Below are positions 7,647 through 40,117 of a DNA stretch of 41,749 bases, piece by piece. Position 1 is the stretch's first letter; each line of letters begins with the position of its first letter. The position numbers and the translations under genes are program-made. The stretch comes from a virus: IMG/VR virus record IMGVR_UViG_3300030451_002238, positions 1-41,749 of that record. One strand, given 5' to 3'. The notes under the pieces are model-generated. The model did not search any database. It saw only the letters and a list, made by a program, of their open reading frames with translations, and had not been told where the DNA came from.

Positions 7647-8429
7647 CTAATAACCCTCGTTAAATAATTTAAGCTCTGCTGCTCTTCTTTTTATAAGACC
7701 ATCACGAACTTTACCACCTGCGTACTTGTACTCTGGCAACATGTCAGCAATCTCTTCATCACCTCTTGTGCCGTTGTCTGTTAACTTTCTCAAGTTACCT
7801 GCCCCTAAATTGTAAGTAAAACTTGTAAGAGCATCTACTTGATTTTCGTTCCAGTCATAACCTGCTGTTTCTTTTAATTTTAAAACAGTTTTACGTGCAG
7901 CATCTAAATCTTTTTCTAGAAGTCTTTTAGCCTCTGCCTCAGTTATCGTTTGATTTTTACTACTAGCTTTTGTTCCATAACCTATAGATATTTGTTTAAA
8001 ATCATCATAGGCAGTTGAACTAAACTTTTCATATTCCATCACAAACTCAACTAAATTAGATGGTATTTTAGAACCCTCTTTATCAGGTGAAGATGTGTTT
8101 TGTGTAGGTTTTATACCTAGCTCTTCTTTCTTTTTTGATAACTCAGGGGATTCATTCTCACTTGCAAAAACATCATTTAATATTCCCTCCCAACCACCTG
8201 TGTAAGCAAGCATGTTATTGGAAACATCCTTAGATTTTTCTTTAGATTCATTTTGTATCCTCTTTATACCTTCCATAGTTCGTTCTGCATTAGGCACTGA
8301 AAGTTGTTCAGCCATAAGACCTACTTTTGATTGACGTTTAACACCAGGATCACCTATATTTAACTCAGGATTGCCTTGTTCAAGCATAACTCTTTTTCTT
8401 TTTCTATCTTCTGTTGTTGGTAAACTCAT
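7647..8429 (-). CDS. Virion-associated GH24 (T4-type) lysozyme
   Basis: 260 residues. Residues ~1-120 are a polar, charged extension; ~122-260 are a glycoside hydrolase family 24 lysozyme that cleaves the glycan chain of peptidoglycan. The catalytic Glu is in MEYEKF (Glu134), the second acid in AYDDF (Asp143), and ISIGYG (Ser148) holds the position of the catalytic Thr of T4 lysozyme; this conservative Thr-to-Ser change is notable. NENQVDALTSFTYNLG and the C-terminal IKRRAAELKLF are family hallmarks. There is no signal peptide. Its position among presumed internal virion proteins, far from the lysis cassette, argues that it is carried in the particle and opens the cell wall during DNA entry. 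A lysis endolysin role is less likely because a separate M15 enzyme lies in the lysis cassette. Confidence 0.85.
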   Translation of the reverse strand: MSLPTTEDRKRKRVMLEQGNPELNIGDPGVKRQSKVGLMAEQLSVPNAERTMEGIKRIQNESKEKSKDVSNNMLAYTGGWEGILNDVFASENESPELSKKKEELGIKPTQNTSSPDKEGSKIPSNLVEFVMEYEKFSSTAYDDFKQISIGYGTKASSKNQTITEAEAKRLLEKDLDAARKTVLKLKETAGYDWNENQVDALTSFTYNLGAGNLRKLTDNGTRGDEEIADMLPEYKYAGGKVRDGLIKRRAAELKLFNEGY

Positions 8430-33326: not shown

Positions 33327-33785
33327 TTAGTTCACCATGTAAATTATAAACCCTAGCATTCCTGCTCCAGTTAATATTATTAAAATAGAGAGAGTCCAAG
33401 TAACTATTGCTTCTTGTATCTCTGCTTTGCGGTACTCTTGATCTTTCTTTTGTTTACGTATTCTACCTTCAGTAGCTACAAGCTCATCCCAGGCAGATGG
33501 ACCCATGCTAAAACTAATCCAGTCTTTTAGCTCTTTTCTCATGGCTTCGGCTTTTTTCTTAGCCGTAAAGATTTCTAGAGCTTCTGCCTCAACAGATTGT
33601 CCATTGAGTGCTTTCCACCAAGGTGGATTCTTGTTTTTCTGTTCAGCGTAGGACAGGTCACTCATTGCACCTGCCCATTGGGTCAACTGTCCTGACATAT
33701 CTTGTAGGTCTTTACCTACCTGAAAGCCTTTCTTCAAAGCATTGAAAGCTACGGTAGCACCACCGATGATTGTTACTGGGTCCAC
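33327..33785 (-). CDS. Membrane-anchored protein, C-terminal helix
   Basis: 152 residues from a GTG at 33785 with GGAGG 6 nt upstream. The N-terminus is GGATVAFNALKKGFQVGKDL, the middle is polar and helical with NKNPPWWKALNGQSVEAEAL and MRKELKDWISFSMGPSAWDEL, and a single hydrophobic segment lies near residues 128-150 (TWTLSILIILTGAGMLGFII). Proteins of this exact plan sit just upstream of terminases in several marine phages as I remember them; their function is unknown. The topology (cytoplasmic coil plus C-terminal anchor) would suit a membrane-tethered packaging or assembly factor, but that is speculation. The gene ends where the small terminase begins. Confidence 0.75.
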   Translation of the reverse strand: MDPVTIIGGATVAFNALKKGFQVGKDLQDMSGQLTQWAGAMSDLSYAEQKNKNPPWWKALNGQSVEAEALEIFTAKKKAEAMRKELKDWISFSMGPSAWDELVATEGRIRKQKKDQEYRKAEIQEAIVTWTLSILIILTGAGMLGFIIYMVN

Positions 33786-33837: not shown

Positions 33838-34002
33838 TCAGAGTGGTTTGCCTGTCAGTATGGCTCTCTCTATATCAAATCTACCAATTCCTAGATCTTT
33901 TAATTCCCTATCAGTCATTTTTTCAAGTTGTATACGTGCAACTTTACGTCTTGCTGACTCTGCTCTTGCTTCTACTAATTTGTTGAGTAATCTTTTAAAC
34001 AT
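33838..34002 (-). CDS. DUF1127 (YjiS-like) small protein
   Basis: 54 residues; the ATG at 34002 has GAGG 7 nt upstream. The sequence has the DUF1127 pattern: a basic N-terminal helix (FKRLLNKLVEARAES), then LEKMTDRELKDLGIGRFDIE, where the family has L-x-x-M/L-x-D-R-x-L-x-D-I/L-G-I-x-R. DUF1127 proteins are abundant in alphaproteobacteria; some are RNA-binding or act in phosphate, carbon and small-RNA metabolism. A phage copy is unusual. It is the first gene after the promoter at 34059-34087. Confidence 0.8.
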   Translation of the reverse strand: MFKRLLNKLVEARAESARRKVARIQLEKMTDRELKDLGIGRFDIERAILTGKPL

Positions 34003-37542: not shown

Positions 37543-37839
37543 TTACCATTTAACTTTGTTAGCCCAATACGCAGCAGACATCTTACCTTTTGCAATATTC
37601 TTGCTGTGTCGTGCTTTAAAACTTGCCCTCTTCTTCTTCATCCTATCCGATTCACCTGCTTTGGGTTTACCTGCAGTAGAGGCTCCTTGCTGACCAAAGC
37701 GAATCAATTTATATTTGCCACCTTCTGATGCCATGACAACGTGAGACTTAGTTGGGTGATCAGGAGTCCTCTTTGGTTTATTGACCCCTTTTAAACCCAG
37801 TCTTTTCATTGTCGCTTTGACACGCTCTGGTACACTCAT
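37543..37839 (-). CDS. Conserved small basic protein (SFKARHSKNIAKGKMSAAYW)
   Basis: 98 residues. A KPKRTPDHPTKSHVVMASEG segment precedes KYKLIRFGQQGA, a basic linker and RASFKARHSKNIAKGKMSAA with an AYWANKVKW end. It is compact, basic and well conserved in marine phages as I recall (possibly DUF6321, from memory). Its ATGA start overlaps the spanin-like gene. Function unknown. Its place inside the lysis and envelope cassette is notable, though similar basic genes follow downstream. Confidence 0.75.
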   Translation of the reverse strand: MSVPERVKATMKRLGLKGVNKPKRTPDHPTKSHVVMASEGGKYKLIRFGQQGASTAGKPKAGESDRMKKKRASFKARHSKNIAKGKMSAAYWANKVKW

Positions 37840-38198
37840 TTGTATCTCTCGTACTTAGGGTTATCTTTCCTCCCGAATAGTGTCAGTATAAAATTCATTA
37901 TACCTCTACCAATTTCTGTAGGTGTTGGCAAGAGCCAACCTAAGATAAGGAGCAACATAACCCAGGGTGGTATGTTTGTGTTTATAATATCTAAGCTTCC
38001 CACTGATCCTGTCTCTACTTCTTTTGAAACTACATCTCTACCTGCAGAGGTAGTGTTCTCTACAGACATTACGGATTGTCGATTCTCTGCACCTATCTGT
38101 GCGTTAGAATTTACTGTAGGTCCGTCTGATCCTCCTAGCAACCCCAGAGTACTCAAACCACAACCAGATAAAAATAGAACGAGTATTAACCATCGCAT
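37836..38198 (-). CDS. Lipoprotein with second membrane helix, unimolecular spanin candidate
   Basis: 120 residues. A lipoprotein signal with lipobox LSGC (Cys13) is followed by a Ser/Asn/Thr-rich periplasmic segment (~14-75) and one hydrophobic helix at ~78-94 (PPWVMLLLILGWLLPTP), then an amphipathic stretch and a basic end. An outer-membrane lipid anchor plus an inner-membrane helix in one chain is the plan of unimolecular spanins (T1 gp11 type), which fuse the two membranes in the last step of lysis. It lies directly after the endolysin gene. There is no separate Rz/Rz1 pair in the window. Confidence 0.72.
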   Translation of the reverse strand: MRWLILVLFLSGCGLSTLGLLGGSDGPTVNSNAQIGAENRQSVMSVENTTSAGRDVVSKEVETGSVGSLDIINTNIPPWVMLLLILGWLLPTPTEIGRGIMNFILTLFGRKDNPKYERYK

Positions 38199-38665
38199 TA
38201 CATCATCTCAAAATGTGGGGCATCAATAAAGGGTCTACGTCCTTGAGATCTTCTTAGATCAACGTAAGCCATCATAGCATCCTCTGAAGTTCCTGGATAT
38301 GTTCTTATATCCCCTTCACTCCAGGCTGCTCCCCATTTGATAGCACACCCAACTTCTTCTGCTGCAGCTTTGAAAGCGTCACAGATATCATCGTACAAGT
38401 TCAACTCCCAGGATACTTCTGGTCCTACGTAGGCTACAACATCTACAGCCTGTGAGTATCCATCCTCTTGAGGAAGATGTTTAGATCGCATCGTCTGGGA
38501 TCTCCCTGCAGCTACGTTAGCCTCTTGCTCTTCTATGGTTCTTACACCACATGTCACTCCGAAATCAACGCCTGTCAGTTCGATGGCTCTTTCAACAACA
38601 GCAACGAGATCAGGGTGTACCCCTTTCAGTCTGTCTTTTGATCTTTGACTTAAATTAAAACTCAT
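38198..38665 (-). CDS. Endolysin, M15-family L-alanyl-D-glutamate-type peptidase
   Basis: 155 residues. Zinc ligands and catalytic residues of the VanY/T5-endolysin type are visible: SKHL (His63), QAVDVVAYV (Asp75), and the end FIDAPHFEM (Asp148 and His151). The start LSQRSKDRLKGVHPDLVAVVERAI matches the usual helix of these enzymes. It cuts the peptide stem of peptidoglycan. There is no signal peptide, so release depends on a holin. It overlaps the holin candidate by 4 nt and the spanin candidate by 1 nt: a compact lysis cassette. Confidence 0.9.
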   Translation of the reverse strand: MSFNLSQRSKDRLKGVHPDLVAVVERAIELTGVDFGVTCGVRTIEEQEANVAAGRSQTMRSKHLPQEDGYSQAVDVVAYVGPEVSWELNLYDDICDAFKAAAEEVGCAIKWGAAWSEGDIRTYPGTSEDAMMAYVDLRRSQGRRPFIDAPHFEMM

Positions 38666-38991
38666 CTCATATCCTTCTTCATAGCTATTTTGTTGCCCAT
38701 TGGCTTCCCTGCCATGTATGCTGTTGCGCCCATGTAGGCTGCTACGACACCAGTCTGTGCAATATAAAATAGCCCAAGCAAATCTGCTAGGGCGTTAACT
38801 CTTGAGTCTGACATCAATGGTGTAAAGAGAAAGATAGTGAAGATAATCATCATGCCCATAGCTACCCAGGCCATAAACTTCTGCGATTCAGCCTTTTCTT
38901 CTCGTAGCTCTACTTCGAGCATACGCTCTTTCATCGCTATCTCTTCTGGTGTGATCTTCCCATCACCATCAATGTCAAAATCTACTACCAT
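38662..38991 (-). CDS. Holin candidate with an EF-hand
   Basis: 109 residues. The N-terminus has a canonical 12-residue EF-hand loop (DIDGDGKITPEE at 6-17, with Asp6, Asp8, Asp10, Gly11, Ile13 and Glu17 in the calcium-binding positions), then a helical linker rich in Glu. Two membrane helices follow (~39-60 and ~69-93) and a basic tail. Size, two helices and the position just before the endolysin fit a class II-type holin. The calcium-binding loop suggests gating by calcium, which is inference. An alternative is a transport-like membrane protein. Start and stop overlap both neighbours. Confidence 0.72.
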   Translation of the reverse strand: MVVDFDIDGDGKITPEEIAMKERMLEVELREEKAESQKFMAWVAMGMMIIFTIFLFTPLMSDSRVNALADLLGLFYIAQTGVVAAYMGATAYMAGKPMGNKIAMKKDMR

Positions 38992-39101
38992 GTTAAGATT
39001 GTTCCTATAATAAATCCTAGAATAATGCCTACTGTCAGTGTTTTTTTGTTAGCTAGGATCATTTTTATACTATACTTCAGCTTTTGCCACTGTTTCTTCA
39101 T
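38985..39101 (-). CDS. 38-residue single-helix membrane peptide
   Basis: MKKQWQKLKYSIKMI is a basic N-terminus and LTVGIILGFIIGTILTW a single membrane helix. The ATG at 39101 has GGAGG 6 nt upstream, an excellent site. It overlaps the end of the upstream gene by 32 nt and the holin candidate by 7 nt. Its position before the holin suggests a lysis regulator such as an antiholin, but the sequence alone does not prove this. Confidence 0.65.
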   Translation of the reverse strand: MKKQWQKLKYSIKMILANKKTLTVGIILGFIIGTILTW

Positions 39102-39363
39102 AGTTATCCTCCCACTTTCGTCTTCTATCTGGATCTAGAACGTCAAATCTGGACAACATACCCTCAAGGTACATTGATCGTTCTATCCTATCCAGAGATT
39201 CCCAGTTTCCTGTGTGTTCAAAGTAGGCTCTACGCACATAGAATACATCAGATCTGGGGATGTGTACTCTTCTTAGCTTCTTTTCGTCTTGATTAGCTAG
39301 TGCGTTGTAGAACTCTTCTAGTACTGAGTCTGACTCAAAGTACTTTATTCGGTTTTTACTCAT
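39070..39363 (-). CDS. Hypothetical protein, first gene of the late operon
   Basis: 97 residues, soluble, charged and rich in Arg/Glu/Tyr (FESDSVLEEFYNALAN, then HIPRSDVFYVRRAYFEHTGN and SLDRIERSMYLEGML). It looks like a small all-helical protein, perhaps nucleic-acid or protein binding. No ribosome site is seen, and a promoter candidate (39377-39404) would start the RNA only about 7 nt before the ATG, so it may be read from a leaderless or very short leader transcript. Not recognised. Confidence 0.65.
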   Translation of the reverse strand: MSKNRIKYFESDSVLEEFYNALANQDEKKLRRVHIPRSDVFYVRRAYFEHTGNWESLDRIERSMYLEGMLSRFDVLDPDRRRKWEDNYEETVAKAEV

Positions 39364-39739: not shown

Positions 39740-39767
39740 GTTATATCTAAATGTGATCACAACTCAA
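39740..39767 (-). promoter_or_regulatory. Second leftward promoter with operator in the spacer
   Basis: On the minus strand TTGAGT (39767-39762), a 16-nt spacer, TATAAC (39745-39740) extended as TATAACTACC. The spacer contains the whole TGTGATCACA palindrome (39752-39761), touching the -35. A protein bound there would occlude RNA polymerase, so this looks like a repressible late-direction promoter. Confidence 0.65.
39752..39761. promoter_or_regulatory. Operator-like palindrome TGTGATCACA, copy 1
   Basis: Perfect 10-bp palindrome in the spacer of the promoter at 39740-39767. The same sequence occurs at 40043 and 40108, and I did not find it elsewhere in the window by eye. It is not a CRP site, which needs a 6-bp gap between TGTGA and TCACA. 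Confidence 0.75.
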
Positions 39768-40042: not shown

Positions 40043-40052
40043 TGTGATCACA
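40043..40052. promoter_or_regulatory. Operator-like palindrome TGTGATCACA, copy 2
   Basis: Identical to the copy at 39752. It lies just after the AGTTTAA cluster and 65 bp from copy 3, which is close to six helical turns, so one protein could bridge the two. Confidence 0.7.
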
Positions 40053-40107: not shown

Positions 40108-40117
40108 TGTGATCACA
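40108..40117. promoter_or_regulatory. Operator-like palindrome TGTGATCACA, copy 3
   Basis: The core is identical to the other two copies, here extended to a 12-bp palindrome (TTGTGATCACAA, 40107-40118). It is the nearest of the three to the rightward genes. Confidence 0.7.

Follow-up and report, generated by a model that had tools for sequence, protein, structure and literature searches.

Class II holins are defined by two helices and an N-in/C-in orientation (PMC9636201), and mycobacteriophage cassettes with two holin-like proteins have been documented, one of the pair being a two-helix, N-in/C-in protein (PMC13056207). The published analysis of Melnitz assigned no holin and suggested that a curli pore serves as the counterpart of a pinholin (PMC9004378). 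The timing of holin triggering is a question of long standing. The literature that we searched yielded neither a ligand-sensing holin module nor a description of an EF-hand holin (the matches were endolysins or unrelated mentions), and calcium was not mentioned in a holin review.

We analyzed a viral DNA stretch of 41,749 nucleotides (IMG/VR record IMGVR_UViG_3300030451_002238; hereafter the window) that encodes a small protein, here called EF2TM, with a calcium-type loop followed by two membrane helices. Its nearest named relatives are gp72 of CRP-9 (92.7% identity) and gp56 of CRP-1 (91.8%), two Roseobacter phage proteins that are both annotated as hypothetical, and the window is a marine Roseobacter-type phage. 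CRP-1 was classed as HMO-2011-type in a 2025 paper (PMC12629253). EF2TM belongs to a large, undescribed family that is found in aquatic phages.

EF2TM and the lysis cassette of the window

The first-pass annotation of this DNA had placed a calcium-binding loop before two membrane helices in the gene just ahead of the endolysin, without naming a strand. EF2TM lies on the minus strand (38991-38662), and each element of that description was recovered: Asp6, Asp8, Asp10, Gly11, Ile13, and Glu17 are all present; the two membrane helices appear as hydrophobic segments at residues 39-57 and 67-85 (Kyte-Doolittle) and as AlphaFold helices at 15-59 and 62-95; and the next gene (38665-38198), which overlaps EF2TM by 4 nt, encodes the endolysin. 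The features of the region are as follows.

38662..38991, minus strand: EF2TM, a putative holin or holin partner of 109 aa with its ATG at 38991 (ORF call, Kyte-Doolittle, AlphaFold, and homologs)
38941..38976, minus strand: 12-residue putative metal-binding loop DIDGDGKITPEE, residues 6-17 (conservation in 284/284 relatives and pN/pS contrast)
38878..38940, minus strand: exiting helix and linker, residues 18-38 (column conservation and AlphaFold helix)
38821..38877, minus strand: first hydrophobic membrane segment, residues 39-57 (Kyte-Doolittle)
38713..38793, minus strand: second membrane helix, residues 67-93, leading into a basic C-terminal tail (hydropathy, model, and a pN/pS of 0.017)
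38198..38665, minus strand: endolysin, M15-type peptidase (phrog_465, E 1.1e-54; Peptidase_M15_4, E 0.006, below cut-off)
37836..38198, minus strand: spanin-like lipoprotein with a lipobox (LSGC) and a C-terminal membrane segment (profile matches to spanins)
38985..39101, minus strand: 38-aa ORF with a single membrane helix, its stop overlapping the EF2TM start (ATGGTAG)
39070..39363, minus strand: 97-aa soluble protein without a Pfam match, a common upstream neighbor of EF2TM
33327..33785, minus strand: 'MDPVT' protein of 152 aa with a C-terminal membrane helix (match at E 2.8e-12 to phrog_32327, a family of unknown function)

The window thus has the order EF2TM, endolysin, spanin-like gene, the last two overlapping; the spanin-like product matched NCBIfam spanin2_3 (E 1.1e-10, below cut-off) and the Rz-like spanin family phrog_1804 (E 1.6e-6). 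Among the loci of close relatives, an M15 endolysin was found in 80 of 81 and a spanin in 79 of 81, most commonly in the order 'MDPV' protein, EF2TM, endolysin, spanin, terminase small subunit, terminase large subunit. The orthologs in CRP-1 (gp56) and CRP-9 (gp72), 92-93% identical to EF2TM, likewise precede the endolysin and the spanin-like gene and show no notable difference.

No signal sequence or membrane anchor was seen in the window endolysin, which would therefore need a hole, and it is this need that suggests a holin. Our leading but tentative explanation is a lysis role for EF2TM in the inner membrane, most probably as a class II-type holin whose N-terminal half EF-hand would respond to calcium. 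Its two helices would fold into an N-in/C-in hairpin, which would build up and later open the membrane to let the soluble M15 endolysin through; the outer membrane would then be the target of the spanin.

An alternative assigns EF2TM the part of an antiholin or of a second holin-like partner or regulator, with the loop tuning another holin or the complex. The 38-aa single-helix ORF that is coupled to EF2TM in the window would suit such an arrangement, for which the paired proteins of mycobacteriophages (PMC13056207) offer a precedent. Against it, a soluble endolysin requires an exit route, and a search of the coding strands in the window and CRP-1 for ORFs shorter than 300 residues with a pair of membrane helices gave EF2TM alone, with no other two- or three-helix protein found in either; the PF11351 holin profile matched nothing in the window, CRP-1, or CRP-9. 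Just 5 of 80 close relatives had an identical or similar short ORF at the EF2TM start, and the 38-aa ORF was accordingly rejected as a general antiholin of the family.

Several further features of the window were recorded. The 'MDPVT' protein is the usual upstream neighbor of EF2TM in three subfamilies and may be another lysis component; the window copy lies ~5 kb away and adjoins a short DUF1127-like ORF (33838-34002). The structural region holds a second muralytic gene (7647-8429, minus strand; Phage_lysozyme PF00959, E 1.9e-24), whose product is probably a virion-associated or ejection enzyme. Three perfect TGTGATCACA palindromes (39752-39761, 40043-40052, and 40108-40117) are located in a divergent intergenic region of ~1 kb, accompanied by TAGTTTAA/AAGTATTAC repeats. 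Many relatives have clusters of one to four TGTGATCACA copies at their loci, and the palindromes may therefore be operator or origin sites.

Conservation and selection of the calcium-type loop

To collect relatives, viral contigs were scanned four times with different family members; the numbers of stretches confirmed were 222, at least 595, 48, and 325. Of these, 288 loci were retained, and the retained loci, the named phages, and the window together supplied 284 full-length proteins. Some of the scan peptides overlapped the loop, so that highly divergent loop-less members would be missed in those scans, and a separate search was made for them.

The first-pass annotation had stated beforehand that its proposal would fall if the loop residues were not conserved in homologs. 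All 284 full-length relatives, which represent the EF-bearing subfamilies, retain D-x-[DN]-x-[DN]-G-x-[ILV]-x-x-x-E, with ligands at loop positions 1, 3, 5, and 12 and glycine at position 6, while positions 2, 4, 7, 10, and 11 are highly variable. Within the window subfamily (53 distinct genes), pN/pS was 0.006 at the six ligand-type codons versus 0.57 at the other six, and in three other subfamilies the ligand value was ~0.03 (up to 0.037) compared with ~0.4 (down to 0.38) for non-ligand codons. Positions 1, 6, and 12 had no nonsynonymous changes in the subfamilies analyzed. Although these ratios are uncorrected counts over related sequences, the contrast falls inside a single stretch of 36 bases and is clear, indicating selection on metal binding. 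Shuffling the residues of EF2TM produced the strict motif in 15 of 200,000 trials, and 1 of ~2,900 other neighboring ORFs contained it; together with the codon selection, these results rule out a chance EF motif. The sequence evidence thus supports the loop as a real, selected metal-binding site and not a decoration.

A complete EF-hand helix-loop-helix was not found in the window protein, in which only the loop and the exiting helix are present because just five residues precede the loop. In a subfamily with a longer N terminus, a short helix (residues 3-11) was predicted with low model confidence. The window protein did not reach the Pfam EF-hand cut-off (19.5 vs 25.9 bits), and among PDB entries the EF2TM family profile matched calmodulin-type loops at ~1e-6. 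The linker carries the family motif E-N-x-D-K-x-x-D-x-Q-R-x-M-A-W, with column conservation equal to that of the loop.

Two hydrophobic segments were present in 282 of the 284 relatives. An AlphaFold model computed with 70 relatives was of modest confidence (mean pLDDT 75, pTM 0.45) and contained an unbroken helix over residues 15-59, in which the EF exiting helix passes straight into the first membrane helix; this model had no significant fold match in the PDB or BFVD. The turn is short and near-neutral and the C-terminal tail is basic, and in the loop-less branch KNRRR precedes helix 1. This charge pattern is consistent with an N-in/C-in topology, in which both termini would face the cytoplasm.

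Free calcium is scarce in the cytosol and plentiful outside the cell; a cytoplasmic loop would therefore fill once the membrane leaks. With the N-terminal half EF-hand predicted in the cytoplasm and its exiting helix running into the first membrane helix, calcium at the helix cap could alter helix packing or pair the loops of neighboring subunits, and hole assembly would change as a result. Calcium entering on a membrane leak would bring the loop into play as triggering occurs, either as a feed-forward trigger or as a brake. That calcium governs lysis timing, a possibility raised by the first-pass annotation, is a plausible hypothesis. A fuller version, in which the family consists of calcium-gated holins whose cytoplasmic EF loop senses calcium passing through the first leaks and so makes opening cooperative and all-or-none in aquatic phages, is possible but on the doubtful side. 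The same annotation had reasoned from the high calcium content of seawater. This part of the argument is weakened, as is any seawater-only adaptation, by the Limnohabitans phage DC31, which is annotated as freshwater and carries the EF-loop fusion, so that the calcium of seawater is not essential; fresh water nevertheless also offers a large inward calcium gradient.

It is also conceivable, though we consider it unlikely, that EF2TM is a holin whose loop is a constitutive structural metal site that caps or anchors the helix and carries no signal, whether occupied by Mg2+, permanently occupied by Ca2+, or situated in the periplasm. A lone loop without an entering helix is usually a weak binder, Mg2+ is plentiful in the cytosol, and conservation by itself does not separate sensing from structure. 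The invariant Glu at position 12 with Asp/Asn at positions 1, 3, and 5 is nevertheless a calcium-type ligand set, and an unregulated site should be easily lost, yet no loss was found within the EF-bearing subfamilies.

Loop-less relatives and distant branches

In the Stenotrophomonas phage DLP6, the slot orthologous to that of the T4-like EF2TM genes holds a loop-less version, followed by a GH108-domain protein. Searching with the DLP6 protein led to two-helix ORFs in Limnohabitans phage DC33 and phage cta1H496; these loop-less holin candidates (L302:2989-3306 in DC33 and L301:2998-3210 in cta1H496) lie directly before Rz/Rz1 and are absent from the deposited annotation. The loop-less family comprised 27 related stretches in viral contigs, one of which (L339) is EF-bearing and bridges the two branches. 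Over the hairpin, the loop-less and EF families aligned with an hhalign probability of 96.8% (E 2.5e-10), and the EF-family profile found exactly one copy per record in 12 named records, including DLP6 and DC33. Loop-less genes are situated between the endolysin and Rz/Rz1 in two contigs (L333 and L336) and before Rz/Rz1 and M15 in L328 and phage DC33. The DC33 record (PQ492659.1, L302) is labeled Inoviridae, a label that looks wrong for a 39-kb genome with an endolysin and an Rz-like gene.

By gene order, the loop-less relatives occupy the place of the holin in the cassette, which makes the hairpin the probable lysis module and the EF loop an addition to it, with a regulatory or structural role. 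The loop is evidently dispensable for the core function, since relatives exist without it; that they apparently perform an equal job also fits a purely structural metal site. Their cassettes show no other evident holin, a further point against EF2TM being a partner of another holin. The proteins of DC33, cta1H496, and DLP6 share the EF2TM hairpin and, in DC33 and cta1H496, its lysis-cassette position; they differ in lacking the EF loop and are unannotated or hypothetical.

The first-pass annotation had suggested looking for the same fusion beside endolysins in other phages, and it was found in many, with other endolysin types in distant branches. In DC31-type loci, EF2TM mostly directly precedes an Rz-like spanin, and a phrog_894 endolysin is present in 67 of 80. 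Further partner endolysins in the family belong to phrog_181 and GH108. The CRP-345-type loci are of two kinds, one with the order EF2TM, spanin, M15 and the other with EF2TM followed by the PF11351 three-helix holin or a phrog_2524 holin-like protein and then the endolysin. A separate holin (PF11351) or holin-like protein stands immediately downstream of EF2TM in 31 of 47 such loci, and in CRP-810 the PF11351 match is likewise a separate downstream gene (gp32). The one link between phrog_2524, which is unnamed, and PF11351 is a weak pairwise match (E 3e-4) that covers the N-terminal 40 residues. GTA_holin_3TM (PF11351; CRP-810 gp32) carries a holin annotation and shares an operon with EF2TM in some relatives; it has three helices and is unrelated to EF2TM, with which it co-occurs. 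Because these relatives encode a separate holin, a partner role for EF2TM is conceivable, though we regard it as somewhat unlikely.

In the T4-like phages HTVC008M, Melnitz (gp108), and phiN3, EF2TM is retained between baseplate-hub (gp51-like) and tape-measure-like genes, and in CRP-207-type phages its neighbors are a terminase and genes without assignment, none of which was identifiable as a lytic enzyme. Such settings would fit a membrane-associated factor that serves virion assembly, DNA entry, or superinfection exclusion and whose linkage to lysis genes is incidental. We judge this very unlikely, as it hardly explains the recurrent linkage to unrelated endolysins (phrog_465, phrog_894, phrog_181, and GH108) and to unrelated spanins (the lipoprotein type and Rz/Rz1). 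CRP-207 gp73 ('putative lysozyme', L004:2351-2932), which directly precedes EF2TM, looks like a membrane-anchored coiled-coil protein; it had no endolysin match in the PHROGs scan and was for that reason left uncounted as an endolysin. A cellular or host origin of EF2TM is unsupported: scans of GTDB gave 0 and 10 loci, all from MAGs or binned assemblies, and the 10 loci are possibly phage contigs.

Comparison with known holins and EF-hand proteins

EF2TM matched no holin family above cut-off, scoring 14.3 vs 28.4 bits against PF07332 (Phage_holin_3_6), a family that was weakly matched by 25 of 70 EF2TM members (best E 9.4e-5); its own PHROG match is of unknown function. Profile searches for T4 and T7-type holins in 12 genomes gave no match even in the controls and are therefore uninformative.

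EF2TM is a candidate lysis membrane protein for marine phages in which no such protein had been assigned, such as Melnitz. A metal loop that is under near-absolute selection across hundreds of phage sequences would also offer a mutable handle on holin triggering.

Like EF-hand proteins (calmodulin-type, Pfam EF-hand_1 and EF-hand_5), EF2TM has the canonical 12-residue loop and exiting helix; unlike them, it has a single loop with no entering helix, is fused to a membrane hairpin, and has a sub-cut-off Pfam score. With class II holins, such as S68 of the lambdoid phage 21, EF2TM shares small size, two helices, and a position directly before the endolysin and spanin, and its charge pattern would fit their N-in/C-in topology. 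It differs from them in having no detectable sequence relation and in adding an N-terminal metal loop and a charged helix of 20 residues. Judged by its architecture and not by sequence membership, EF2TM is a candidate class II-like holin that carries a conserved calcium-type loop.
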